23,641 bases of DNA, taken from assembly GCA_937897265.1 (NCBI GenBank), contig CALCPT010000484.1:1-23641 (forward strand). Direction: 5' to 3'. The position numbers were made by a program, and so were the translations under genes. Source of the stretch: an uncultured Alcaligenaceae bacterium. GTDB taxonomy: Bacteria > Pseudomonadota > Gammaproteobacteria > Burkholderiales > Burkholderiaceae_B. Shown here in pieces: positions 6,883 through 23,591 of this stretch (positions within the stretch are counted from its first letter, which is position 1; every line of letters begins with the position of its first letter). The notes under the pieces are model-generated. The model was not told where the DNA came from. It did no database searches and was given only the letters and a program-made list of their open reading frames with translations.

Positions 6883-7179
6883 TCACTTTTGCGTTGCCTT
6901 CAACAACCGCTCAACTTGCTCTAGCGTTGTGCCGCGCACCAATACTCGCTTTTGACGACTGGTGTGGCCAGTCAGTAATTCGATCTGCTTGCGCGGCAAG
7001 CTTAATTGATCTGCAAGCCAGGCGACTAAGGCTTCATTTGCACGATTTTCAAGCGGTGGAGCCTGCACTTGAAGCTTAAGTCGTTCGCCGTGCAAGCCCA
7101 CCACCTTTGAGACTTTCGCGCCAGGCTGGCAGTGCAGCGATAGCACTAGCCCGTCGATGGTCTCGGCGATCCAAGCCAC
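6883..7179 (-). CDS. yggU: DUF167 / YggU family protein
   Basis: A 98-residue conserved protein of unknown biochemical role. The family core is clear: LHCQPGAKVSKVVG, ERLKLQVQAPPLENRANEAL (the typical PP-x-x-x-x-AN-x-A motif), LSLPRKQIELLTG and a final SRQKRVLVRG. A longer open frame runs upstream to 7446, but there it is only a second reading frame of the transporter gene. The likely start is the GTG at 7179-7177, which overlaps the transporter's TAG stop by one base (TAGTG) and gives the family's usual length. It is therefore translationally coupled to the CHR transporter gene. No strong ribosome binding site is visible. Confidence 0.85.
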   Translation of the reverse strand: MAWIAETIDGLVLSLHCQPGAKVSKVVGLHGERLKLQVQAPPLENRANEALVAWLADQLSLPRKQIELLTGHTSRQKRVLVRGTTLEQVERLLKATQK

Positions 7180-7712
7180 TAATGAAGACCAAAAAAATGC
7201 ATCAAGAGCGCACCCAAACCGCCAGCGCCCAAAATCATAAAAACCGGATTCACTCGGGTGAACAGAATCGCTGCAAAGGTCGCGATTGCTAGAGTGATCG
7301 TTAAGGGCCCCACAACAGCCGCCTTCGCCACCGCGTACACGCCCGAGCACATCAAACCAATCGAGATGGGCTCGAGTGCATTTTGAACTGCGCGTCGCCA
7401 GGGACGCTCGCCAATTTTTTGCCACAGCCGCCCCATGCTCAAACACAGCACGCTAGACGGAATAAAAAACGCAATGAGCACAACGCCCGCGCCGAGCAAC
7501 CCGGCAAGCTGAAAACCAAATACCAGAACCATCATCATGTTTGGGCCTGGCGCCAACTGTCCAATACTGTAAATATGCACAAACGCAGTGTGATCAATAT
7601 TAAATTGCGCGGCGAGCACCGTCTGCATCTCAGGCAAAACAGCGGTGCCTCCGCCCACAGCCAAGACCGACAACATACCAAAGTTTAGAAACAGCTGAAG
7701 CAAGACACTCAT
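7179..7712 (-). CDS. chrA: Chromate (CHR) transporter family, second half-size subunit
   Basis: A 177-residue integral membrane protein with one CHR domain: LAVGGGTAVLPEM near the N-terminus, IYSIGQLAPGPNMMM with the QxxPGP motif, and five or six hydrophobic segments. Short CHR proteins usually occur as adjacent pairs that together make a functional transporter equal to full-length ChrA, exporting chromate; some members may carry other anions. An open frame extends to 7772, but the ATG at 7712 overlaps the stop of the first subunit by four bases (ATGA) and starts at MSVLLQLFLNFG, the typical beginning. Position after a SulP anion transporter suggests an oxyanion theme, although chromate specificity is not proven by sequence. 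Confidence 0.88.
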   Translation of the reverse strand: MSVLLQLFLNFGMLSVLAVGGGTAVLPEMQTVLAAQFNIDHTAFVHIYSIGQLAPGPNMMMVLVFGFQLAGLLGAGVVLIAFFIPSSVLCLSMGRLWQKIGERPWRRAVQNALEPISIGLMCSGVYAVAKAAVVGPLTITLAIATFAAILFTRVNPVFMILGAGGLGALLMHFFGLH

Positions 7713-8296
7713 GGTTGTTGTCCAGGCCGATACAGATATAAGCCAATCGGTACCATCACGATCAAGACCCACACTAGCGAAAGCTTGAATACGCTCATCA
7801 ACACAAACGTAGAAACGATCATCAGCAACGACTTCAGTCGAACAAAATGACGTTTACCAATCGTGTAGGTCACCGACGCTAGCAGCCCGGTTGCACCGGC
7901 GGCGATTCCGGCCAGCAGCACATTGATAAACGGATGCTGACCGCTGGCACTATAGGCAACCCCAACCACTAAGACAAAGGCGCCCCCCGGCAGCATCAAC
8001 CCGATGGCCGCCGCCAGCGCACCCATCGTGCCACGAAGTTGATCGCCGGCGAGTAGCGCGAGGTTGACTGAATTTAAGCCTGGCATTGTCTGACTGATGG
8101 CAAGGGTCGCCATAAAGCTATCAGCACTCAGCCATTGTCTCTTTTGGATTAACAGAATGCGCTCGTAGGCCACAATGCCGCCGCCAAAACTGACCGCGCC
8201 GATCAACAAAAATTCAAAAAAAATTTGCCATAGCGTGGGCCGTACTACAACGGGAACTGCGCTGGAATGCGCATTAGATGGGGCAGTCGTCGTCAT
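7709..8296 (-). CDS. chrA: Chromate (CHR) transporter family, first half-size subunit
   Basis: A 195-residue membrane protein with one CHR domain: a hydrophilic N-terminal tail of about 22 residues, then IGAVSFGGGIVAYER, the QTMPGLNSVNLA segment (QxxPG-type motif) and GLMLPGG, followed by several membrane segments and a short basic C-terminus. It forms a two-gene pair with the next CHR gene, overlapping it by four bases. The ATG at 8296 is eight bases after the stop of the CYTH-like gene, and no separate promoter is visible. The pairing is the known short-chain CHR arrangement; the transported anion is inferred from the family name only. Confidence 0.88.
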   Translation of the reverse strand: MTTTAPSNAHSSAVPVVVRPTLWQIFFEFLLIGAVSFGGGIVAYERILLIQKRQWLSADSFMATLAISQTMPGLNSVNLALLAGDQLRGTMGALAAAIGLMLPGGAFVLVVGVAYSASGQHPFINVLLAGIAAGATGLLASVTYTIGKRHFVRLKSLLMIVSTFVLMSVFKLSLVWVLIVMVPIGLYLYRPGQQP

Positions 8297-12680: not shown

Positions 12681-13841
12681 TTAAGGTGACTTGCGGTGAT
12701 GTAACGCCGCAGTCACCATACCAAGAGCTAAACCCCAGAAAGCACTGTTCAAGCCAAACAGCGAAAGCCCCGACGCTGTCACCAAAAACGTAATCACAGC
12801 AGCGTCACACTCGTTGGGTTCGCTGAGTGCCGTCGCCAAACCATTACCGATCGTGCCTAACAAGGCTAAGCCCGCGATGGTCACAATCAAGGCCTGCGGA
12901 AACGCGGCAAAAAGGCTGACAACTGTTGCGCCCAGCACACCTGTGACGACATAAAAACAACCCGCACACACTGCTGCAAGATAACGTTGTTTCGGGTCAG
13001 CGTCGGCGTCTTTGCTCATACACATGGCCGCGGTGATGGCTGCTAAATTAAATGAGAAACCGCCAAACGGTGCCAGTAACAAACCGGCAAGACCCGTGAA
13101 GCCAATCAACGGCGAAGCCGGTGTCGTATAGCCATTAGCGCGCAGCACAGCCAGCCCTGGAACATTTTGTGAAGCCATCGACACTATAAATAACGGGATC
13201 CCGACGCCAATCAGGCTTGTGACCGAAAAGGTAGGCGTCATCCAAAGGGGTTGCGCAAACGTGAGTGCGAAATGCTGCATCTGAAACAAACCTAGCGCAG
13301 CTGTTGCGCCGAGCCCAACAAAAAAAGTCAGCGGGACGGCATAGAGTGGCAGATAGCGTCTCGCAACGAGAAAGCAGGCAAGCATGATCCCGACTAGCGC
13401 GCCTTGTGTCGGCAACACCACAAATACGTCTACTCCAAAACGTAACAAAACTCCCGCCAACATCGCTGCGGCAAGCGTTTTTGGTACGTAACGCATCAGG
13501 CGTTCAAACAGACCAGAAAAGCCTGCAAGTGTGATGAGCAAAGAATTAAATAAAAAGATGCCGATCGCCTCAGACATGGATAACCCTGCGAGGCCCGTAA
13601 TCAATAACGCAGCACCCGGCGTTGACCAAGCAGTGAGGATCGGCTCTTTGAAATAGAGAGACAAACCAATGCAGGTAAATCCCATCCCAAGGCCCAAGGC
13701 CCATAGCCAAGACGAAATTTCAGCTGGCGTCGCGCCCGCCGCATGCGCGGCTTGAAAGACAATTGCGGCTGAACTGGTATAGCCCACCAGCACGGCGATG
13801 AATCCAGCAGACAGATGCGAGAGCCGAACTCGGCTCAGCAT
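12681..13841 (-). CDS. benE: BenE family (benzoate/H+ symporter type) transporter
   Basis: A 386-residue polytopic membrane protein with about twelve hydrophobic segments and family signatures: LSAGFIAVLVGYTSS near the N-terminus, KEPILTAWSTPGAALL (about residues 65-80), PLFIVSMASQNVPGLAVLRANGY, and APFGGFSFNLAAITAA. BenE proteins are proposed proton-linked benzoate importers, but most relatives are uncharacterised and no benzoate catabolic genes lie nearby. The ATG at 13841 follows the cyclohydrolase gene by 81 bases on the same strand. An imperfect hairpin (CAGAC...GTCTG, 13857-13877) lies just before it without a T-tract. The gene could be the distal member of a transcript from the ribA-like promoter, or independent. 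Confidence 0.9.
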   Translation of the reverse strand: MLSRVRLSHLSAGFIAVLVGYTSSAAIVFQAAHAAGATPAEISSWLWALGLGMGFTCIGLSLYFKEPILTAWSTPGAALLITGLAGLSMSEAIGIFLFNSLLITLAGFSGLFERLMRYVPKTLAAAMLAGVLLRFGVDVFVVLPTQGALVGIMLACFLVARRYLPLYAVPLTFFVGLGATAALGLFQMQHFALTFAQPLWMTPTFSVTSLIGVGIPLFIVSMASQNVPGLAVLRANGYTTPASPLIGFTGLAGLLLAPFGGFSFNLAAITAAMCMSKDADADPKQRYLAAVCAGCFYVVTGVLGATVVSLFAAFPQALIVTIAGLALLGTIGNGLATALSEPNECDAAVITFLVTASGLSLFGLNSAFWGLALGMVTAALHHRKSP

Positions 13842-13922: not shown

Positions 13923-14996
13923 CTAAAGCATGTGACCACTTTTAGTCGCTTTCGTGCGCAAGTAGCCATGATTGTGTTCGTTTGACGGAAAAATGTGAGC
14001 GACACGCTCAACCACTTCGATATTATGCTGAGCCAAGGCGGCGACTTTTAATGGATTGTTAGTCATTAACCGCACGCGCGTCACACCCAACAAACGCAGC
14101 ATTTGCGCAGCAGGCAAATAATTGCGCTCGTCTGAGTCAAAGCCCAACTGCAGATTGGCATCAACGGTATCAAAGCCAGCGTCTTGCAACTGATAGGCGC
14201 GCAGCTTATTCACCAAGCCAATCCCACGACCCTCTTGCGCGAGATACAGCAAAATCCCACTGCCAAACTTATTCATTTCGCTGATCGAACCTCGCAACTG
14301 ATTGCCACAGTCACAGCGTAACGACCCCATCAAATCGCCCGTAAAACACTCAGAGTGCAAACGAATCAATGCGGGAACCTCTGGATTTAGCTCACCGACA
14401 ATAATCGCCAAATGTTCGATACCACCATCACGCGGCCGAAAAGCCACCACGCGGGCATGCTCGGCGGCTTCGAGTGGCACGCGCGCTTCGCTGACCACAC
14501 GCAGAGAGTCGGCTGCAATATCCATGTAAGCATCGATTGCAGCCACGCTCACGTTCAAGGCGTCGGTCGCTGAACCAGCGGTCGCCACAATCGCGGCTGG
14601 CAACAAGCGTGAAAGTTTGGCTAGCATGACGCATGCTTGCTCGAGATGCCCCGCTGCTGAAATGTGCAACGCAGTCAAGTCGGGAGGCGTCTCAAGCGCC
14701 GAGAGCGGGTTTGCCAAGTAATCAATCACGGCCTTGTGCAGGCCGCCAGGCGCGCTCACCACACAGGCCTGATGATCACTTTTATCTAGCCCGAGGACAT
14801 TAGCACGTGTGCCCGTCATGACCAGTGCAACAGGTGAGTTAGACTCAGAGGCCAGCGCGCTCAGGCTTTCAACGCTGACGGCCTCGGCCGCGAGCATCAG
14901 GACACTGGCTTCACCAAGATGTACTCGAATACTCGCTCCGCGGCGTAGTTCGGAGATAACACGGTCAACTTCAATCAGGGGGTCTGTTTTAGACAC
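13923..14996 (-). CDS. ribA: GTP cyclohydrolase II with vestigial RibB-like N-terminal region
   Basis: GTP cyclohydrolase II opens GTP to 2,5-diamino-6-ribosylamino-pyrimidinone phosphate, the first riboflavin step. In this 357-residue protein the C-terminal domain (from about residue 175) is complete: zinc cysteines 217, 228 and 230 in HSECFTGDLMGSLRCDC, then LAQEGRGIGLVNKLRAYQLQD, and the active-site GFDSDERNY with Arg291. The N-terminal 165 residues resemble a RibB (DHBP synthase) domain in outline (VDRVISELRRG...LAAEAV), but the acidic DDEDRENEGDL-type loop is gone, so RibB activity is not expected. The GTG start at 14996 has a TAGG seven bases upstream. It is divergent from the RibD-type reductase gene, suggesting paired control. 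It may serve riboflavin synthesis or a dedicated secondary pathway. Confidence 0.88.
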   Translation of the reverse strand: MSKTDPLIEVDRVISELRRGASIRVHLGEASVLMLAAEAVSVESLSALASESNSPVALVMTGTRANVLGLDKSDHQACVVSAPGGLHKAVIDYLANPLSALETPPDLTALHISAAGHLEQACVMLAKLSRLLPAAIVATAGSATDALNVSVAAIDAYMDIAADSLRVVSEARVPLEAAEHARVVAFRPRDGGIEHLAIIVGELNPEVPALIRLHSECFTGDLMGSLRCDCGNQLRGSISEMNKFGSGILLYLAQEGRGIGLVNKLRAYQLQDAGFDTVDANLQLGFDSDERNYLPAAQMLRLLGVTRVRLMTNNPLKVAALAQHNIEVVERVAHIFPSNEHNHGYLRTKATKSGHML

Positions 14997-15007
14997 GTCG
15001 AGCCTAA

Positions 15008-15023
15008 CAATAAGTTTTTATTG
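15008..15023. promoter_or_regulatory. Inverted repeat upstream of the ribA-like gene
   Basis: CAATAA and TTATTG form a perfect 6-bp inverted repeat around GTTT, 11 bases before the ribA-like GTG start (leader of the minus-strand transcript). It contains the 10-mer AGTTTTTATT (15013-15022), which recurs at 15227-15236 in the right arm of the larger palindrome on the far side of the same intergenic region. A regulator site or leader hairpin is inferred. Confidence 0.4.
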
Positions 15024-15086
15024 GGGTTGTGACGAAATTTCAGCGTAAGCTGACACCTAGCTGAATAATCGCGCCGCTCGCAATTA

Positions 15087-15102
15087 TGCCATCATCGTGG
15101 CA
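15087..15102. promoter_or_regulatory. TGCCA-N6-TGGCA inverted repeat over a possible minus-strand -10 box
   Basis: A 5-bp inverted repeat with a 6-base spacer. On the minus strand the same bases contain TGGCATAAT, an extended -10 element, but no matching -35 box is seen. A protein bound here could control the ribA-like gene. It is short and could be chance. Confidence 0.25.
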
Positions 15103-15187
15103 ATATATTGGGGAATACACTTAGTTTGTAACAACTTTTTAAAGTTCCACCCTGTCTGATCCTCACACATTCTTCACCGTTGCTTTT

Positions 15188-15218
15188 TTGATCTTGTTAC
15201 CTAAGTCTGCATTATAAA
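15188..15218 (+). promoter_or_regulatory. Candidate promoter of the RibD-type reductase gene
   Basis: TTGATC (15188-15193) and TTATAA (15212-15217) are separated by 18 bases. The -10 box overlaps the left arm of the 22-bp palindrome at 15214-15235, which would place that palindrome where a repressor could block transcription. Boxes are seen; use as a promoter is inferred. Confidence 0.4.
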
Positions 15219-15235
15219 AACTAAGTAGTTTTTAT
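15214..15235. promoter_or_regulatory. 22-bp palindrome (operator-like) before the RibD-type gene
   Basis: Two perfect 10-bp arms (ATAAAAACTA and TAGTTTTTAT) flank a central AG. It overlaps the candidate -10 box and lies 32 bases before the ATG. There is no T-tract or GC-rich stem, so a terminator is unlikely; a dimeric regulator's operator is the simplest reading. No regulator gene is present in the window. Confidence 0.5.
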
Positions 15236-15267
15236 TAATTTTTCTCTCTAATGACTCTCGGTACCTC

Positions 15268-16038
15268 ATGAACGAAAGCGCGCAACAAGATTCTTGGCCA
15301 GACCTGCTTGAGGCCTTTGTTCGAGCGCCCACTCCGGTGCCGTCGGAGTGGGCGCCTGTCTTTGGCCCGTTGCGAACGGGTGCTTGCGATGCAATGATGG
15401 TAGTCGGTCAATTAGGTCAAACGCTGGATGGTCGCATTGCCACCGTCACCGGTCAGTCAAAATATATCAATGGGCCAGCTGGGCTCACCCATTTGCATCG
15501 CTTGCGAGCCGTTGTCGACGCTGTCGTCGTGGGCGTGGGCACTGCGACGGCAGACAACCCTCGCTTAAATGTGCGGCTTGTAGCTGGCCAACACCCAGCT
15601 CGGGTCGTCATTGATCCAAAGGCCCGCCTAGCACCCGACTCACTGGTATGGTCAAACGATGGCGCGCGTCGTCTTGTCATCGTTGCCGATCAGATCAAAG
15701 TCAACACACCACCCGAGGTAGAGGTCGTCTCGCTTGAAAGCAGCAACGGCCAACTCGCCCCTGCCGACATCCTCAAGGCTTTGTTTGAGCGCGGTCTCAA
15801 ACGTATCTTGATAGAAGGTGGGGCCGATACCGTTTCACGCTTTATGCAGGCCGGTTGCCTCGACCGCCTGCACGTTATTGTGGCGCCGATCATCATGGGC
15901 TCGGGTCGCCCCGGTTTTTCTCTGCCTGCGATCGAGCACATGGATCAGGCAGTCAGAATAAAAATGCATCCTCACCCGCTCGAAGATGAGATGCTCTTTG
16001 ATTGCGATCTATCAGCTCAACGCGTCAGAATCGTCTAG
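15268..16038 (+). CDS. RibD C-terminal-type reductase (pyrimidine reductase / DHFR-like fold), stand-alone
   Basis: The 256-residue protein matches the reductase half of RibD, which uses NADPH to reduce the ribosyl side chain of the diaminopyrimidine to ribityl. After a non-conserved N-terminus of about 45 residues come MMVVGQLGQTLDGRIATVTG, a YINGPAGLTHLHRLRA segment, VVGVGTATADNPRLNVR, HPARVVIDP, and the cofactor-loop strand ILIEGGADTVSRFM. The zinc deaminase domain of bifunctional RibD is absent. The gene is divergent from the GTP cyclohydrolase II gene, whose product is the expected substrate. Its last 27 bases overlap the 3' end of the convergent glycosyltransferase gene. The ribosome binding site is weak, and a six-codon frame (15251-15271) overlaps the ATG. 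Confidence 0.85.
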   Translation: MNESAQQDSWPDLLEAFVRAPTPVPSEWAPVFGPLRTGACDAMMVVGQLGQTLDGRIATVTGQSKYINGPAGLTHLHRLRAVVDAVVVGVGTATADNPRLNVRLVAGQHPARVVIDPKARLAPDSLVWSNDGARRLVIVADQIKVNTPPEVEVVSLESSNGQLAPADILKALFERGLKRILIEGGADTVSRFMQAGCLDRLHVIVAPIIMGSGRPGFSLPAIEHMDQAVRIKMHPHPLEDEMLFDCDLSAQRVRIV

Positions 16039-17100
16039 CTTCGCGCTGACGCAGATACGCTCAACAACTCCTTCAAACAAACGGGCGCAATCAGCCCACG
16101 AGGGTTGCTGCGCAGCCGCTAACAACGCACCTTGCGAGAGACTCTTGCGCAAAGCCTGATCTTGAATGATTTGACGCAAAGCGTTTAGCAAGCTGTTGAC
16201 ATCACCTGGCTCGGCCAACAAACCTGCGGTCGCTGGAACAGTATCTGGGATTGCACCCGCGGTGGTGCCAATGACCGGCAACCCATGCGCCAGTGCCTCG
16301 GCATACGCCATCCCGTAACCTTCAAAACGAGACGCCAGCACAAAGACATCAGCCTGCGCGTAGAGCGTTTGTAATTGCGCAGAGTCAATCGCACCCAGTA
16401 CGCGCACGCGGCTTGATAAGTCAAACCTATCGAGGTCGCGATGCAATTGCGCGACAGCTTCGGCATCACGCGTCAAGTCACCCGCGATTGTCAGGTGCCA
16501 CGACAACGCTGAGAGCTGAGCCAACGCTGGCAACAAGATGTCAAAGCCCTTGCGTTTCACCACAGACCCCACCGCTAATAACTGCAGCGGACCTTGCACC
16601 GTCGGCCTTGACACTTTTACAACACGATCCGTACCAGGCAAGATGCTTGTGATCGACTGGCGAGGCACTGCAAAATGTTCGACAACGTCATGCAATGTAG
16701 CGGGGCTGGTCACCACCACCCCCGAGGCGTGCGCAAGTGCTCGCCTCTCGGTGTCTTTGAAATGCGCCGACTGCTCAGCACTCAAGCCCGTCTCAAACGC
16801 AAGTGGGTGATGCACCAAGGCAATTAATGGATGACGTTGCCGTAATTGCGCGGCCACTTCGGGTAACACACCAAACGCCAAGCCATCGATCACCACTGGC
16901 AGACCGGGTTCAAGCGTCAGCAAGCTTTCACAGGCCTTTTGCCGCGTGCCAAGGTCTGGGTACGGAAATCCATCGCCCAGCCCAAGCACCTGCACCTGCC
17001 AGCGGTTCGCTCTCAAGCCGTCAATAATGTGACGATCATAGATATAGCCGCCTGTCGCCGTGAGCAAATCACCAGGTATCGCAAACACCAATCGCTTCAT
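16012..17100 (-). CDS. Glycosyltransferase family 4 (GT-B fold)
   Basis: A 362-residue retaining glycosyltransferase of the GT4 type, transferring a sugar from a nucleotide-sugar to an unknown acceptor. Features: an N-terminal acceptor-side loop with LLTATGGYIYDRHIIDGL (GG at 17-18), the mid-protein strand LLAVGSVVKRKGFDILLPAL with basic phosphate-binding residues, and the hallmark E-x7-E (Glu260, Glu268) in SRFEGYGMAYAEALAHGLPV. No membrane segment is obvious. A TTG at 17112 would add four residues; I chose the ATG at 17100, 23 bases after the PTPS-like gene. It is the third gene of the MDR-PTPS-GT4 minus-strand operon. Its 3' end overlaps the convergent RibD-type gene by 27 bases. Confidence 0.9.
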   Translation of the reverse strand: MKRLVFAIPGDLLTATGGYIYDRHIIDGLRANRWQVQVLGLGDGFPYPDLGTRQKACESLLTLEPGLPVVIDGLAFGVLPEVAAQLRQRHPLIALVHHPLAFETGLSAEQSAHFKDTERRALAHASGVVVTSPATLHDVVEHFAVPRQSITSILPGTDRVVKVSRPTVQGPLQLLAVGSVVKRKGFDILLPALAQLSALSWHLTIAGDLTRDAEAVAQLHRDLDRFDLSSRVRVLGAIDSAQLQTLYAQADVFVLASRFEGYGMAYAEALAHGLPVIGTTAGAIPDTVPATAGLLAEPGDVNSLLNALRQIIQDQALRKSLSQGALLAAAQQPSWADCARLFEGVVERICVSAKLDDSDALS

Positions 17101-17123
17101 GTTGTCGCTCAATCAACCGCCGT

Positions 17124-17522
17124 TCAAATTGCAGCCTCGTACCAGGCGCGAGCAACATGCGATTCAGAGATCGTAATGCGGATGGCGTGCAACTCTTTGC
17201 CATCGCGACCAAGCGTGCCCGAACGAGCCGCGCTTGCGAGTTGATCAAAAATATACTTTGTTAAAAACTCAGTCGTGGTGTTCATACCCTTAAACTCAGG
17301 ATGATCGTCCAGGTTTGAATAGTTCAGGGGCTTGAGCGTGTCTTTGAGCACATCAAGCGCACGACCGATATCGACAACAATACCGTTCTCATCTAAGGTT
17401 TTGGCAATGAAAGCCGCGTCAACCACAAAGGTGGCGCCATGTAAGGCTTGAGCGGGGCCGAACACTTGGCCACGAAAAGAATGGGCGATCATGATGTGAT
17501 CGCGAACTTCGACTGTAAACAC
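17124..17522 (-). CDS. 6-pyruvoyl-tetrahydropterin synthase / QueD family protein, altered metal site
   Basis: A 132-residue member of the PTPS/QueD superfamily (T-fold), whose enzymes act on dihydroneopterin triphosphate. Recognisable are IAHSFRG (His14), the LHGATFVVDAAF strand (His28), GIVVDIGRALDVLKDTL, LNYSNLDDHPEFKGMNTTTEF (the usual N-x-T-x-E helix) and the ESHVARAWYEA end with the conserved Glu. In canonical members the second motif is HGHNY and supplies two zinc histidines; here it is HGAT, so one ligand is missing, and the usual catalytic Cys is not seen. A changed reaction is likely. The GTG start is supported by AAGGAG six bases upstream. It lies between the MDR oxidoreductase and GT4 genes in one operon. 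Confidence 0.82.
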   Translation of the reverse strand: MFTVEVRDHIMIAHSFRGQVFGPAQALHGATFVVDAAFIAKTLDENGIVVDIGRALDVLKDTLKPLNYSNLDDHPEFKGMNTTTEFLTKYIFDQLASAARSGTLGRDGKELHAIRITISESHVARAWYEAAI

Positions 17523-17528
17523 AACGAG

Positions 17529-17534
17529 CTCCTT
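17529..17534 (-). promoter_or_regulatory. Shine-Dalgarno AAGGAG deciding the GTG start of the PTPS-like gene
   Basis: Read on the minus strand, AAGGAG ends six bases before the GTG at 17522-17520. It overlaps the TAA stop of the preceding oxidoreductase gene, which indicates translational coupling. It is among the strongest ribosome binding sites in the window and fixes the start. Confidence 0.8.
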
Positions 17535-18534
17535 AAGAGTAATGAATAAGCTGGCAAAGAATGCCGCTTGGTTGACCTAAAATTTGAGGTAACTGCTTGG
17601 GTAAATCGGCAAAGGCAACCGCTGGAGCAAGCAGTGCGTCAAGCCTTGCATCTTTTAAGAGTTCAAGCGCGACACCCAGCCGGCGACGGTACGTATAGCG
17701 CGGTCGGCGGGTTGCCGAGACGTGTCCAACCTGGCTCGATTGCAAACGCAATTGTTTGCTATGAAATGCTCCGCCCAAGGGTGCACCAACGATTTGGGTA
17801 CCGTACCAACTCAGCTCAAGTACCGTGGCCTCTTCGCCCGCAAGCCTAAGAGCGGTCACCAAACCAGCCGCCGAGGCGCTCGTATGAAATACTAGATCGC
17901 AATCGAGAGGCGCGGCTGCTTCGGTCGCAAACTTCACACCGAGTTGCGCTGCAAGCGCAGCGCGCTGCGGATTGATATCGACCAACGTAACGTCTGCGCC
18001 TGGCAGGTGACCGCATAAAAAAGCCACTAAACAGCCCAAGACGCCACCACCCACCACGGCAATTCGATCGCCCGGCCCAGGCGCAGCATCCCACACGGCG
18101 TTCAGCGCGGTTTCCATATTTGCTGCCAGCACCGCTCGCTCGAGTGGCACCCCCTCGGGTATCGCCATCACCGCGTCAGCGGCCAAATTAAAATAATCTT
18201 GATGAGGGCTTAGGCTGAATACGCAACGATTGAGCAGCTCAGGCGGGCCGCTTTGCACTCGACCCACTGAGGCGTAACCATATTTGACCGGAAACGGAAA
18301 ATCTCCGCCCATAAATGGTGCACGCATACGCGTAAATTCAGCCTCAGGGACTTTGCCGGCAAAGACTAAGGATTCGGTGCCCCGACTCAAGGCACTAAAT
18401 AGTGTGCGAACCCTAACTTGCCCAGCCTGCAGTGCAGGCAACGGCTCGGCGCGCAACTCGGCAACGCCGGCAGATACATACCACAGGGCCTGCGCCTGGC
18501 CTGATAATGACGCCTCAACGGCTGAGCTTGACAC
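17533..18534 (-). CDS. MDR-family (zinc-type alcohol dehydrogenase-like) oxidoreductase lacking zinc ligands
   Basis: A 333-residue medium-chain dehydrogenase/reductase. The nucleotide-binding Rossmann motif VVGGGVLGCLVAFLCG (GxGxxG at 162-167) and the following LVDINPQR (acidic end of strand 2, favouring NAD) are clear. The N-terminal catalytic domain has LFSALSRGTESLVFAGKVP where zinc enzymes have a Cys-containing CGxCGTD loop, and VKYGYASVGRV where they have GHE. Both catalytic zinc ligands and the four-Cys structural zinc lobe are therefore absent. The SRGTE motif recalls BchC-type and related biosynthetic members. The GTG start is supported by GAGG eight bases upstream. First gene of the operon with the PTPS-like and GT4 genes; substrate unknown. 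Confidence 0.85.
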   Translation of the reverse strand: MSSSAVEASLSGQAQALWYVSAGVAELRAEPLPALQAGQVRVRTLFSALSRGTESLVFAGKVPEAEFTRMRAPFMGGDFPFPVKYGYASVGRVQSGPPELLNRCVFSLSPHQDYFNLAADAVMAIPEGVPLERAVLAANMETALNAVWDAAPGPGDRIAVVGGGVLGCLVAFLCGHLPGADVTLVDINPQRAALAAQLGVKFATEAAAPLDCDLVFHTSASAAGLVTALRLAGEEATVLELSWYGTQIVGAPLGGAFHSKQLRLQSSQVGHVSATRRPRYTYRRRLGVALELLKDARLDALLAPAVAFADLPKQLPQILGQPSGILCQLIHYS

Positions 18535-18615
18535 GTAAAATCCTCGATTCTGTTGACTTTTGCGCGAACGCAGAGAAATTTCAAGTGTCTTCGTAACACC
18601 CTGAGCACTCTGCCC

Positions 18616-18645
18616 TATACTGCGCGAGCCTTGGCAAACAGTATA
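18616..18645. promoter_or_regulatory. TATACTG-N16-CAGTATA inverted repeat in a divergent promoter region
   Basis: Perfect 7-bp arms separated by 16 bases lie in the 164-base gap between the MDR and MdoH-like genes. Each arm includes TATACT, a good -10 box, one in each direction, so the repeat may mark two divergent promoters or a regulator site. No convincing -35 box pairs with either at 16-18 bases, and no terminator is seen in the gap. Confidence 0.4.
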
Positions 18646-18698
18646 AGTGAGTCAAAGGCCTTGATTCTGAAATATCAAAACCCGTCTCCCCAACCCAC

Positions 18699-20453
18699 AT
18701 GCTAACAGTCAGAAGAATTGTCTTTGGATCCCTTGCAACACTAAGCTTTGCAGCGATGCTCGGCCTGATGCATGCCGCGCTAAGCCCCGAGATGAGTAAT
18801 TGGGCTGCCTATAGCCTTCTCGTGCTATTCGCCGTGACTCTACCTTGGACCGTTGTCGGCTTTTGGAATTCGAGCATCGGATTCTTGGTCGGTTTAATCG
18901 CCCGTGACCCCTTGGCCGTCTTGCTGCCACTCAGCGCACGCGCAAGCATGACAGACCCGATCACCTCGTCTACCGCAGTGGTGCTTTGCATCCGAAACGA
19001 AACCCCCACACGCCTTGAACGCAATCTTGAAGCAATGATGCAAAGTTTGGCCGCCACAGGTTTTGGTCAACAATTACATGTTTATGTACTGAGCGATACC
19101 AATGATGAAGTTATCGCACAACAAGAACAACAATGCTTTACCGCAATGGCTACGCGCTGGGCATCGCGCCTCGCACTAACCTACCGTCGGCGTACTGACA
19201 ACAAGGGATATAAAGCCGGCAACATCGCAGATTTTTGCGAGCGTTGGGGACATCTGCATGATTTCGTGGTCACCTTAGATGCAGACAGCTTCATGACGGG
19301 TCGCGCCATTTTGCGTTTGGTGCGCATCATGCAGGCCAACCCAACGCTTGGCATTTTGCAAGGTCTGGTTGTAGGCTTACCCTCCACAAGCGGTTTCACT
19401 AGGCTGTTTCAATTTGGCATGCGCTTAGGCATGCGCTCGTACACAATGGGTTCAGCCTGGTGGCAAGCAGACTGTGGACCGTACTGGGGGCACAATGCAG
19501 CCATTCGCATCAAACCCTTCATCGAGCATTGTGAGTTACCTCAACTGCCTGATGACAAGGGCGTACCCAGACACATTTTGAGCCACGATCAAGTCGAAGC
19601 GGTGCTCATGCGACGTGCAGGCTTCGAGGTACGGGTGATTCCACAAGAGGATGAAAGCTGGGAAGAAAATCCACCAACCTTAATCGAATATATTCGTCGA
19701 GACCTGCGTTGGTGTGAAGGCAATTTGCAATACGTCCACTTATTAAGTCTGCCAGGCCTGAAGTTCTTAAGCCGTTATCAATTATGCATCGCCATCTTGA
19801 TGTTCTTAAGCTCACCGGCCTGGATTGCTTTGTTATTACTCTCGATCGTACTGTTGTGCTTAGCACCTACGCCAGCGGCATTTATGCATGAAGGGCTTGG
19901 CCTCACGCTGCTGAGCGTGACCCTGCTCATGTGGTACCTGCCTAAGATTGCCGGGGCACTTGATGTGCTGCTGCGCCCAAGCGAGCGGAAGTGTTTTGGT
20001 GGCGGCGTGCGCTTTGCTGTGAGCTTCACCTTCGAGATGATTTTTTCGCTTTTGATGACCCCGATCACTTGGTTAAATCACACCATTTTTATCGTGGGAC
20101 TGCTCTTTGGAAAAAAATCCGGTTGGACCGGTCAAGCGCGCGACGATCATTCAGTACCCTTGGCCGTTGCTGTGCGCCAGTTTTGGCCTCACACTCTGTC
20201 GGGTCTCGTGCTCGCGAGCGCCGTGTGGCACATCCATCCCACTAGTCTGCCCTACGCGCTCATTATGCTCAGTGGCTTACTTTTATCGATCCCGATCGCC
20301 GTGCTGACCTCATGGCCAAGTTTTGGTCGCTTATTGATCCGCTGGAAATTAGTCAGCCTACCTGAAGAAATTGCACCACCCGAAGCCTTAAAACCTCTTG
20401 AGCTTGAGGTCTTAAAGGTATCGCGCGAATCTGAAGATAGGCGCCAAGCATGA
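18699..20453 (+). CDS. MdoH/OpgH-like membrane glucosyltransferase (GT2)
   Basis: A 584-residue inner-membrane processive glycosyltransferase of the type that makes osmoregulated periplasmic glucan backbones from UDP-glucose. Two N-terminal membrane segments (about 8-28 and 37-67) precede a cytoplasmic GT2 domain with DTNDE, the metal-binding DAD (194-196), the catalytic SHDQVEA (Asp297) and R-x-x-R-W (334-338, within [13 protein letters not shown]). Several C-terminal membrane segments follow from about residue 360. The protein is shorter than enterobacterial MdoH (about 850), lacking most of the long N-terminal extension. The partner gene mdoG is not present. Its stop overlaps the ABC exporter start by four bases, so the two form one unit. 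No Shine-Dalgarno is visible before the ATG. Confidence 0.88.
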
Positions 20454-22249
20454 CGAACACGGGTCAGGGACACAGCCCCACCAAGTTCATTGCGCTGTAT
20501 ACCCGCGTGTTAACAATGTTAGGCTCAGATCGCAAGCTCGGTTGGACGCTAGCCGGCGCTAACGTCGTACTTGCGATGGCGATGTTTGGCGAACCGATTT
20601 TATTCGGCCTAGTCATTGATACGCTCTCACGCGCTTCGCTTGACGACCCAGCGAGCATCTGGCCCTCACTAGGGCCGTTACTATTGATATGGGTTGGATT
20701 TGGTTTATTCACAATTTTTTGTGGTGCGGCCATTGCCCTTTTGGCAGATCGCCTGTCACATCGACGCAGACATATGGTGCTGCGAGATTATTTCGAGCAT
20801 GTGCTGCAATTACCACTCGCGCAGCAAGCCGATACCCACTCTGGTCGCCTGATGAAAACGATGCTGCAAGGGACTGACGCCCTATGGTGGCTATGGTTAA
20901 GTTTTTTTAGAGATCACCTTGCCGCTGCTGTCGCACTCATTGTTTTGGTACCTGTCGCGCTTTATATTAATTGGCGACTCGCCCTAGTGCTCATCATTCT
21001 GTGCGTCGTGTTTGTTTGGCTGACACATTTTATCTTGCGCAAAACACAGGCTCTGCAACAGCAAGTTGAGGGACATCACTCTGATTTAGCTGAGCAGGCA
21101 TCCGACACTTTAGGCAATATCGCACTCGTGCAAAGCTTTGCTCGTATCGAACACGAAGTCAGCGCACTCAAAAATATCAGTCAACGCGTCTTGGGCGCTC
21201 AGATGCCGGTACTGTCCTGGTGGGCGCTCGTTAACGTGCTGACCCGCTCTGCAACGACCTTAAGCATTTTGTGCATCGTCGCGTTGGGTGCTTGGTTATT
21301 TACGAAAGGACAGACAAGTGTCGGTGCCATCGTCACCTTCATCTCTTTTTCAGGGATGGTGATTATGCGACTTGAGCAGATTGTCGGGTTTGTACATCGC
21401 CTAGCGATGGAAGCCCCTCGTCTACAAGAATTTTTTCATGTTCTGGATACCGAGCCATCGATACATGATTCCCCTAATGCAATCGACTTGGGGCGCGCTA
21501 AGGGCGCCATTGCCTTTGAAAACGTCACCTTTGCTTACGATAAAAAAAATCCAGCCGTCAAAAGTCTAAGCTTTACTCTGCAACCAGGTACAACTATCGC
21601 CTTAGTCGGTGCCTCAGGCGCAGGCAAGTCAACGGCCTTGAGCCTGCTGTATCGCGCCTTTGATCCACAGTCTGGTCGCATTACGGTGGACGGTCATGAC
21701 ATTCGTGACTTACAACTTGCGTCGCTACGTAGCAATATTGGCGTGGTGTTTCAAGAAGCGCTACTGTTCAATCGTTCAATCGCAGACAACCTAAAAGTTG
21801 GCCTACCCGAGGCAACTGACGCACAGTTACGTCAGGCTTGTGCAAGCGCGCAAGCGCTGGATTTCATTGAGCAACATCCGCAAGGGTTCGATACCAAAAT
21901 CGGCGAGCGCGGACGAGCGCTATCAGGCGGCGAGCGCCAGCGCTTATCCATTGCACGAGTCTTATTAAAAAATCCGCCAATCTTGATTTTGGACGAAGCG
22001 ACTAGCGCTCTGGATAGCGCCACAGAAACTAAGCTATTACAAGCCTTAGATGCGGTCACCAAAGACCGCAGTACGCTGGTGATCGCGCATCGACTGGCGA
22101 CTATCCGTAAAGCAGACAAAATTTTAGTGATGGATCACGGCACGATCGTTGAGGCAGGTTCTTTTGATGAACTGTATGCCCAAGGAGGTCGTTTTACTCA
22201 GTTGGTGAAAGAGCAATTTTCAGATGCCTTGGGAAACTTTATTTCATGA
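20450..22249 (+). CDS. NdvA/ChvA-like ABC exporter (fused permease-ATPase)
   Basis: A 599-residue half-transporter working as a homodimer in the inner membrane. The permease domain (residues about 30-320, five to six membrane segments) has the start [12 protein letters not shown]...[13 protein letters not shown] seen in beta-glucan exporters. The ATPase has Walker [10 protein letters not shown] (387-395), a [14 protein letters not shown]-loop, signature LSGGERQRL (491-499), Walker [12 protein letters not shown] (511-521) and an H-loop IAHRL. NdvA/ChvA export cyclic beta-1,2-glucan in rhizobia. Here it is coupled (ATGA overlap) to an MdoH-like synthase, so export of that enzyme's product is the natural inference; export of a small pterin-like product from the neighbouring genes is an alternative. 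Confidence 0.9.
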
Positions 22250-22332
22250 GCACAACAACTGAGCCGCCTGCCGCAGCGTTGAACGCTGATTTTCTCGCAC
22301 GCAGTTGCGAAACCTTACAGAGAGAAAGATGA
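22246..22332 (+). CDS. 28-codon small ORF coupled on both sides
   Basis: An ATG overlapping the ABC exporter's stop (ATGA) opens a 28-residue frame ([20 protein letters not shown], then CETLQRER). It ends with a TGA that overlaps the methyltransferase ATG (again ATGA). It has no recognisable domain or membrane segment; it is Thr/Pro/Ala-rich, then mildly amphipathic. It could be a true small protein, a translational bridge that carries ribosomes to the methyltransferase, or the remnant of a longer N-terminus. The exact double overlap is seen; a function is not claimed. Confidence 0.35.
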
Positions 22333-23174
22333 CTGGCTTTTCAGCTCAATGGCTTGCCTTACGCGAACCAGCAGATCACCGGGCGCGAGATCGCGCTTTA
22401 CAAAATAAAGTATGTGAGCAACTCGCGAACGTTGCGCGCGCTGAGCAGCGCGCCGTTCGTTTGATCGATCTTGGCTGTGGTTCGGGTTCAAACCTGCGTG
22501 CCTTGGCAACCTCACTACCGCCGCAACAACACTGGACCCTTGTCGATTACGATCCCTTGCTGTTGGCAGCGGCGCGCGCCGCGCTGATTGACTGGGCAGA
22601 TCAGGTGATCAGTGACAGTGCGATCCTGACTCTTCGTAAAAATAATAAAACAATCGAGATTGAGTTTGCTCAAGTCGATCTTGCACGTGACATCGAGCGC
22701 GTGCTTGCCTGGCCTGCTGATGTCATCACTGCCGCAGCATTTTTTGATCTGGTTGCTGAAACGTGGTTAGTACGCTTTTGTCAGGCGCTGCGCACAACGC
22801 TTTATACGGTATTGACCTACGATGGCTCTGAGCGATGGCTACCAGCGCATCGCGCAGACGCCTCAATATTGAAAGCTTTTCATGCTCATCAAAAAACCGA
22901 CAAGGGTTTTGGCGTAGCTGCAGGCCCAGAAGCTGCCACCATCATGCAGCGCGAGTTAATAGCACGCGGATTTCAAGTCGCGCTCGCACCTAGCCCCTGG
23001 CAAATCGATCAAACTGAAGCGACGTTCATACAAGCGTTGGCAACAGGTAGTGCCGCCGCAGTGCGTGAAACTGGCTTGCTCAGTGAACAAGACGTCGCGC
23101 AGTGGTTAGCGGCGCGCATTAGTGCGCAACACTGTACGGTGGGCCACTGGGATATCCTGGCTTCCCCAAGCTGA
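22329..23174 (+). CDS. Class I SAM-dependent methyltransferase
   Basis: A 281-residue protein with a clear SAM-binding motif I (VRLIDLGCGSGSN, Asp47 to Gly53), a strand-2 acidic end in WTLVDYDPLLL, and a motif-IV-like AAAFFDLVAETWL region. It would methylate an unknown small molecule or lipid-like acceptor; no further domain is visible. A TTG at 22305 would give eight more residues, but the ATG at 22329 has a purine-rich AGAGAGAAAG just upstream and is coupled to the small ORF before it. It is the last gene of the MdoH-ABC-smORF unit. Its TGA abuts the stop codon of the convergent FAH-family gene with no bases between. Confidence 0.85.
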   Translation: MTGFSAQWLALREPADHRARDRALQNKVCEQLANVARAEQRAVRLIDLGCGSGSNLRALATSLPPQQHWTLVDYDPLLLAAARAALIDWADQVISDSAILTLRKNNKTIEIEFAQVDLARDIERVLAWPADVITAAAFFDLVAETWLVRFCQALRTTLYTVLTYDGSERWLPAHRADASILKAFHAHQKTDKGFGVAAGPEAATIMQRELIARGFQVALAPSPWQIDQTEATFIQALATGSAAAVRETGLLSEQDVAQWLAARISAQHCTVGHWDILASPS

Positions 23175-23591
23175 TTAGCCGACGGTATTTTTTAAAGTGC
23201 CCACGCGCTCGATGATGACCTCAACCGTGTCACCTGACTTTAAAAATCTGGGTGGCTTACGGCTAAAACCAACGCCTTCTGGTGTGCCCGTTGCGATAAC
23301 ATCACCAGCACGAAGCTCAGTCACGCTTGACATGTACTCAATCAGTTTTGCCACTGAAAAAATCATTGTTGAAAACGATGCATGCTGCATCGCCTCACCA
23401 GACACTAAGGTCGTGAGCGAAAGCGCCTCGAGCGGGCCGACCTCATCCGGGGTCACTAAAGCTGGGCCAATTGAGCTTGAGCGAAAAAAGTTTTTACCCT
23501 GATCAAGAGTGCGTTGAAATTGATAGTCGCGTACTGAACCGTCCATGAAGCAGGTGTAGCCCGCAACATAATTGAGTGCGTCGGCAGCAGC
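23175..23591 (-). CDS. Fumarylacetoacetate hydrolase family protein, C-terminal part (5' end missing)
   Basis: Partial gene; 139 codons including the stop remain. FAH-family enzymes cleave or decarboxylate 2-oxo/beta-diketo acids with a divalent metal. The visible segments are the family's conserved second half: LNYVAGYTCFMDGSVRDYQ, QGKNFFRSSSIGPALVTPDE, LIEYMSSVTELRAGDVIATGTPEGVG and a final SGDTVEVIIERVGTLKN. The first apparent Met (23546) is internal; conserved sequence continues upstream of it to 23591, where sequencing adapter replaces the genome. The true start is therefore not in the window. It converges on the methyltransferase gene with abutting stop codons. Confidence 0.9.
   Translation of the reverse strand, partial: AAADALNYVAGYTCFMDGSVRDYQFQRTLDQGKNFFRSSSIGPALVTPDEVGPLEALSLTTLVSGEAMQHASFSTMIFSVAKLIEYMSSVTELRAGDVIATGTPEGVGFSRKPPRFLKSGDTVEVIIERVGTLKNTVG

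Follow-up and report, generated by a model that had tools for sequence, protein, structure and literature searches.

The DNA analyzed here, which we call the window, is a 23,641-nucleotide stretch (contig CALCPT010000484.1, assembly GCA_937897265.1) from an uncultured Alcaligenaceae bacterium. It encodes a T-fold protein of the PTPS-IV subfamily together with a GTP cyclohydrolase II (GCHII), a RibD_C reductase, a zinc-less MDR oxidoreductase, a GT4 glycosyltransferase, and a methyltransferase (MT) (Table 1). A preliminary description of this DNA had listed these genes, in two facing transcription units with the MT further on, and had noted a GCHII without a working RibB, a RibD-type reductase without the deaminase, an altered metal site in the PTPS-like protein, and the loss of zinc ligands in the MDR protein. 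Each of these features is borne out below: all of the genes are in place, the MT lies 3.8 kb past the MDR gene, and the RibD_C (plus strand) and GT4 (minus strand) genes overlap at their 3′ ends by 27 bases. The block is wider than was described, since an OpgH-like GT2 and a ChvA-like exporter lie between the MDR and MT genes, and the GT2, ABC exporter, and MT genes form a divergent run after the MDR gene (18699–23174). The five genes noted originally are real and belong together. With moderate confidence, we read positions 13923–23174 as a biosynthetic cluster that would make a modified GTP-derived ring compound; it seems to channel the first intermediate of riboflavin synthesis into a probably sugar-bearing, exported or envelope-bound product.

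Table 1. Genes of the PTPS-IV block and the adjoining contig end (window coordinates)
Position	Strand	Product	Profile or remark
13923..14996	-	GTP cyclohydrolase II (GCHII), degenerate N-terminal RibB-like domain	PF00925, 2.9e-58
15268..16038	+	RibD_C reductase, no deaminase domain	PF01872, 8.6e-41
16012..17112	-	GT4 glycosyltransferase, core cluster gene	PF13692, PF00534
17124..17522	-	PTPS-IV (FGPAQ) T-fold protein	PF01242
17533..18534	-	Zinc-less MDR oxidoreductase	
18699..20453	+	OpgH/MdoH-type membrane GT2	NF003958
20450..22249	+	ChvA-like glucan ABC exporter, lineage-specific addition	NF010178
22305..23174	+	S-adenosylmethionine (SAM)-dependent methyltransferase (MT)	Methyltransf_12
23175..23546	opposite to MT	FAH-family hydrolase piece	adjoins MT, at contig end

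Results

Searching the genomes of named species with a PTPS-IV alignment yielded at least 598 matching stretches, at least 592 of which were confirmed as relatives. We compared 116 loci: the 80 best-scoring named relatives, the window, a locus in genome G068, and 34 further loci (26 from a phylum-level, 5 from a family-level, and 3 from an order-level sample). Neighbor families were called by profile searches at 30 bits, and the counts that follow are lower bounds because many loci stop at contig ends. The PTPS-IV gene is accompanied by GT4 in 113 of the 116 loci, MDR in 112, MT in 108, and RibD_C in 73; a CDP-alcohol phosphatidyltransferase is found in 72, GCHII in 60, a flippase in 58, creatininase and FkbM proteins in 40 each, an OpgH-type GT2 in 38, and an LtaS/EptA-like protein in 33. 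The order is conserved as well as the content. Of the 112 loci that encode both MDR and PTPS, 110 have the two side by side on the same strand; PTPS adjoins GT4 in 109/113, GT4 and MT are neighbors in 102 of the 107 loci that encode the pair, and RibD_C lies within 600 bases of GCHII in 32/36. These loci span Pseudomonadota, Actinomycetota, Acidobacteriota, and one metagenome-assembled genome of the Longimicrobiales. The co-occurrence of the genes across genomes, which the preliminary description had proposed as a check, is thus seen over several phyla in a conserved order, and because of this we take the genes to form one pathway.

As controls, we used 49 stretches (187 kb), 28 with other PTPS-family genes (at most 3.3 kb) and 21 with riboflavin-type genes. 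No match to MDR, GT4, or MT was found in any of the 49, and neither GCHII nor RibD_C was found in the 28 other-PTPS stretches. Matches to GCHII (11), RibD_C (8), and flippase (2) were confined to the 21 riboflavin-type controls, which include a stretch, L168, that overlaps a cluster.

The eight-gene order of the window is repeated, as the same syntenic block, in two loci of its genus (L141 and L142) and one of its family (L143), and these three are the only loci among the 116 with strong homologues of the ABC exporter (727–944 bits). The cluster is patchily distributed: it was found in 27 of 398 genomes sampled from the phylum, 6 of 61 from the family, and 4 of 150 from the order, the window assembly being counted in each. 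In the class-level sample, 36 of 114 genomes gave a match at E 1e-3, and besides the window assembly only G068 was strong (E 1e-40). The G068 locus (L034, 6845–10548) has PTPS-IV, GT4, and MT genes; no MDR, GCHII, or RibD_C was found there, and two neighbors were read by eye as FolE2 and a second PTPS-like gene. It is possibly a variant of the cluster fed by a different GTP cyclohydrolase.

The closest solved relative of the window PTPS is SCO6650 of Streptomyces coelicolor (PDB 3d7j, E 2.2e-43), from which zinc is reportedly absent. In all 116 sequences, the window included, the second His of the HGH motif is Ala (HGA) and the catalytic Cys is likewise Ala, whereas Cys and HGH are kept in 13/13 QueD-type controls. 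The other two zinc-site His residues are kept in 116/116, as is the Glu that is expected to hold the ring; in T-fold proteins, this Glu binds the ring of a 2-amino-4-oxo pyrimidine or pterin. QueD or PTPS-I was ruled out as an identity for the protein, which does not match their CxxxHGH motif (PMC5041015) at either the Cys or the HGH. It does carry FGPAQ, which has been published as the PTPS-IV signature (PMC5445326). Among the 116 relatives, the F, G, and A of this signature occur in 116, the P in 114, and the Q in 114, and the neighbors associated with PTPS-IV, PF00925 and PF01872, are both in the window. One could suppose that PTPS-IV serves the synthesis of coenzyme F420, which shares a RibD-derived precursor. 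A 2016 review states such a link as unpublished (PMC5041015), and CofD is present in 4 of 16 PTPS-IV genomes. It was not found in the other 12, which include the window assembly (G000), G658 (100% complete), G691, and G664, and F420 as the product is therefore very unlikely.

PF01872 is the sole Pfam domain of the RibD_C protein, whose nearest PDB entries are 2azn, a putative 5-amino-6-(5-phosphoribosylamino)uracil reductase, and 6p8c, a 2,5-diamino-6-ribosylamino-pyrimidinone phosphate reductase. In the MDR protein, the motifs SRGTE and PVKYGY, every residue of which is more than 95% conserved (43 aligned sequences), occupy what we take to be the zinc ligand sites of zinc-dependent relatives; a search by fold recovered nothing more specific than the general MDR fold of the zinc type. 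A BchC identity was rejected (TIGR01202, 31.2 bits against a cutoff of 291). The GT4 protein matches generic GT4 enzymes, which give no clue to its substrate. The window MT, which has one weak PDB match (CalS10), belongs to the same family as the MT that directly follows GT4 in other loci.

The window GCHII exceeds the TIGR00505 cutoff (216.5 versus 205.85 bits) and falls below that of PRK08815 (295.6 versus 464). Its zinc Cys residues, E53, and Y105 (E. coli numbering) are intact, and residues 54, 65, 67, 105, 126, and 128 are those of the E. coli enzyme. Pfam shows no RibB domain in it. A profile comparison of 24 cluster GCHII N-termini with 10 RibBA N-termini (hhalign probability 88%, E 3.3e-6) suggests that the N-terminus is a RibB remnant. 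In a tree, 44 proteobacterial cluster enzymes, including that of the window, group together and apart from E. coli-type RibA (support 93/99, just below the level starred by the tool), and the actinobacterial cluster GCHIIs form separate groups.

The riboflavin genes elsewhere in the window assembly (3.75 Mb in 728 contigs, 89% complete) bear on how this GCHII is used. RibB, RibD deaminase, RibH, and RibE are absent among the nine proteins scanned at the locus (13.9–23.5 kb), as the preliminary description had it. Contig C621 encodes a full RibD of 403 aa with the deaminase motifs beside RibE, and contig C161 encodes RibBA–RibH (RibB, RibE, and RibH were named by sequence reading). With a full RibD elsewhere in the genome, the cluster RibD_C is therefore an extra. 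The situation differs for GCHII. The only other PF00925 match in the window assembly, G658, G691 (99% complete), and G664 is a RibBA that has lost the three zinc Cys residues, as is also the case in G700 and G704. Across 15 genomes with a cluster GCHII (14 of the 24 searched, plus the window assembly), no second intact-zinc GCHII was found in 6; the remaining 9 have another strong match (>180 bits), and the one further copy inspected in each of G697 and G698 has an intact zinc site. Xenophilus, Variovorax, and Derxia (L154–L157, L165) have a degenerate RibBA GCHII domain in all four of their genomes, whose other GCHII matches are weak (54–58 bits); the zinc motif is intact in the one that was inspected (L165, Xenophilus). 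Because the cluster enzyme is the sole intact-zinc GCHII found in three genomes of the window's genus, it probably feeds riboflavin too.

The preliminary description had inferred a dedicated pathway rather than riboflavin synthesis and had proposed checking for a separate full rib operon. Complete RibD and RibE, and RibBA and RibH, do lie elsewhere, which supports a pathway distinct from that of riboflavin, although the zinc cysteines of that RibBA are gone and the GCHII is probably not dedicated. Its concern that the GCHII and reductase might be the organism's only riboflavin enzymes is thus probably justified for the GCHII and unfounded for the reductase. One could go further and regard the GCHII as simply the riboflavin RibA of the genus, lying by chance beside a glycoconjugate cluster whose pathway comprises the PTPS, MDR, GT4, MT, and membrane proteins. 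That would agree with its being the only zinc-Cys enzyme found in G000, G658, G691, and G664 next to a degenerate RibBA, and with the 56 of 116 loci in which no GCHII was found. Chance is hard to reconcile with a cluster GCHII that recurs in 60 loci of several phyla, the proteobacterial ones as one group, or with Vreelandella (G698), which has a cluster GCHII alongside an intact ordinary RibA. Moreover, 73 loci also encode RibD_C, a second enzyme of riboflavin type that comes on top of a full RibD. We consider the chance arrangement unlikely.

The cluster GCHIIs fall into two kinds. Fifteen of the 60 keep E53 and Y105, and creatininase occurs in none of their loci; the other 45 are altered, with Ala or Ser at 53 or with His, Met, or Gln at 105, and for 36 of them a creatininase is encoded in the locus. 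A replaced Tyr105 reportedly marks SCO6655-like, FAPy-forming enzymes, the Met at this position in SCO6655 giving the formyl intermediate AFRPP. The window GCHII keeps the Tyr, and no creatininase was found in its locus or assembly. Residue 53 may have a role as well. In Sinorhizobium, BrbF, which is annotated as a creatininase, removes the formyl group of AFRPP (PMC9478397). An identity of the creatininase as MftE was rejected, as ten proteins tested were all below the cutoff of 172 bits (best 143.7). In a genome-level test covering 22 genomes, seven of the nine altered genomes without a creatininase at the locus carry a strong one elsewhere (216–266 bits); for the match in G540, one TGA was reported, yet the frame is open over 358 aa. 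Of the nine genomes with intact residues, four Burkholderiaceae and one Micromonospora have no creatininase at E 1e-10, and one has a 104-bit match. These sequence patterns are suggestive of a new association, in which cluster GCHIIs altered at 53 or 105 usually accompany a creatininase-family protein.

Two proteins are encoded between the MDR and MT genes. The GT2 passes the cutoffs of NF003958 (531 versus 419) and NF003962 (486 versus 328) as an OpgH/MdoH protein; its best-scoring model, NF003963, remains under the cutoff (689.5 versus 884), and no PDB sequence match was found for the GT2. The exporter passes NF010178 as ChvA (848.3 versus 733) and falls just short of TIGR01192 (584.6 versus 585.4). 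The LtaS/EptA-like gene is not in the window. Across the 116 loci, 37 have only the OpgH-type gene, 32 only the LtaS/EptA-like gene (>100 bits), 46 neither, and 1 (L130) both, where about 11 with both would be expected from independence (38 × 33/116, kinship ignored). The two seem to be alternatives to one another. A structure model of the LtaS/EptA-like protein (pLDDT 68.5) best matches MCR-1, PbgA, and LtaS, followed by sulfatases, with TM-scores of 0.27–0.47, which points to a membrane protein of the alkaline phosphatase superfamily, perhaps a lipid headgroup transferase. Together with the CDP-alcohol enzyme, this protein suggests an envelope destination. It might then be asked whether the product is itself an envelope glycolipid or glucan, with the pteridine genes making a redox cofactor for building it. 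The CDP-alcohol enzyme (72 loci), flippase (58), OpgH (38), and LtaS/EptA-like protein (33) would fit, as would the modeled resemblance of the last to MCR-1, PbgA, and LtaS, at low TM-scores and with a modest model. However, conservation of the MDR–PTPS–GT4–MT core greatly exceeds that of any envelope gene, and 46 of the 116 loci have neither OpgH nor the LtaS/EptA-like gene. We regard this reading, in which the pteridine is a cofactor and no part of the glycolipid or glucan, as unlikely; the greater conservation of the core is what one would expect of a small-molecule core to which variable finishing steps are added.

Elsewhere in the window, two adjoining frames at 7179–8296 resemble a split chromate-type transporter pair, and a BenE-like multipass membrane protein is encoded at 12681–13841, beside the GCHII gene; both were named by eye.

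Discussion

The reading that we favor, a PTPS-IV cluster making a modified GTP-derived ring compound, would proceed as follows. Gene content, synteny, the residue changes, and the separate RibD are observed; each catalytic step and the product are predicted. On the basis of its family and intact residues, GCHII would open GTP to 2,5-diamino-6-ribosylamino-pyrimidinone phosphate, which the deaminase-free RibD_C would reduce to the ribityl compound with retention of the 2-amino group. PTPS-IV, with its incomplete zinc site and retained ring-binding Glu, and the MDR protein may then remodel the ring or side chain. GT4 would add a sugar and the MT a methyl group. The OpgH-type GT2 and the ABC transporter may polymerize the product, export it, or attach it to the envelope, for which other lineages might use the LtaS/EptA-like protein, the CDP-alcohol phosphatidyltransferase, and the flippase. 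In the window's genus, the same GCHII would probably supply riboflavin also.

Several observations weigh against this reading. The 80 named relatives are the best-scoring of at least 592, not a random sample. Only 60 of the 116 loci yielded a GCHII, and only 73 a RibD_C; locus ends remove some GCHII genes, and the enzyme may often be encoded elsewhere in the genome. In the window's genus, GCHII is probably shared with riboflavin synthesis. Two purple sulfur isolates, Thiorhodococcus minor (L166, G708) and Lamprocystis purpurea (L164, G709), have no intact-zinc GCHII by PF00925; they presumably make riboflavin and may have another, unrecognized GTP-opening enzyme, and because of these two genomes, absence by Pfam is no proof of absent activity. 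As for the creatininase, one altered genome (G582) has none and another (G713) has weak matches only (55 bits), and three of five Micromonosporaceae with intact residues encode one elsewhere (234–262 bits; 52–58% identical to actinobacterial cluster enzymes). A strict one-to-one link between altered GCHII and creatininase, which held by locus, is thereby weakened at the genome level, and the compared sequences are related, so that the counts ignore kinship.

A more specific proposal, which we offer tentatively and hold to be doubtful as a whole, is a diaminopyrimidine or pterin that is glycosylated, methylated, and linked to the envelope or to lipid, made by a widespread cluster whose GCHII switched its chemistry more than once and is now the sole GCHII of the window's genus. 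The two chemistries would be complete deformylation, or release of FAPy followed by a creatininase-family deformylase, and would be readable from residues 53 and 105.

A conserved neighborhood in which enzymes of riboflavin, pterin, sugar, and lipid metabolism come together suggests a possibly new molecule in many environmental and soil bacteria, and it places the orphan SCO6650 structure, and the PTPS-IV subfamily with it, in the context of a pathway. Residues 53 and 105 offer a testable rule for separating two kinds of GCHII. A warning also follows, in that some Burkholderiales may have their riboflavin GCHII inside another cluster; if the cluster GCHII is indeed the only one in the window's genus, it would tie the cluster product to the riboflavin supply there.

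Among known systems, the toxoflavin pathway is said to reuse GCHII, a RibD-type enzyme, and a methyltransferase. Its clusters are marked by a RibD-like deaminase domain; the RibD-type protein of the window has PF01872 only, without a deaminase, and PTPS, MDR, and GT4 are extra. Both window proteins that resemble the OpgH (MdoH) and ChvA glucan systems pass curated NCBIfam cutoffs, but unlike in those systems they sit inside a PTPS-IV block. SCO6650 and SCO6655 of Streptomyces have reportedly been studied (Bandarian laboratory), and SCO6650 is of the same PTPS subfamily as the window protein (2.2e-43). A Streptomyces relative (L089) likewise has MDR, PTPS, GT4, MT, RibD_C, and GCHII together, although its GCHII has Met105 and its locus a creatininase, where the window has Tyr and none. 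The creatininase-family gene beside the altered GCHII of many window relatives recalls the BrbF/ArfB formamidases (PMC9478397); no such gene was found in the window locus or assembly. PTPS-IV beside PF00925 and PF01872 was printed in 2017 as AGeNNT cluster 62, with the GCHII taken for FolE2 (PMC5445326), and "undescribed," as the pathway had been called in the preliminary description, is therefore too strong. Cluster 62 resembles the window in FGPAQ and in these two neighbors, and the passages on it leave MDR, GT4, MT, and creatininase unmentioned (PMC5445326). In the open-license literature searched, no description of the whole cluster was found. The window is thus a variant of a partly noticed cluster type, and we file it as such because it has the same core, no creatininase that we could find, an intact GCHII that is probably shared with riboflavin synthesis, and an added exporter.

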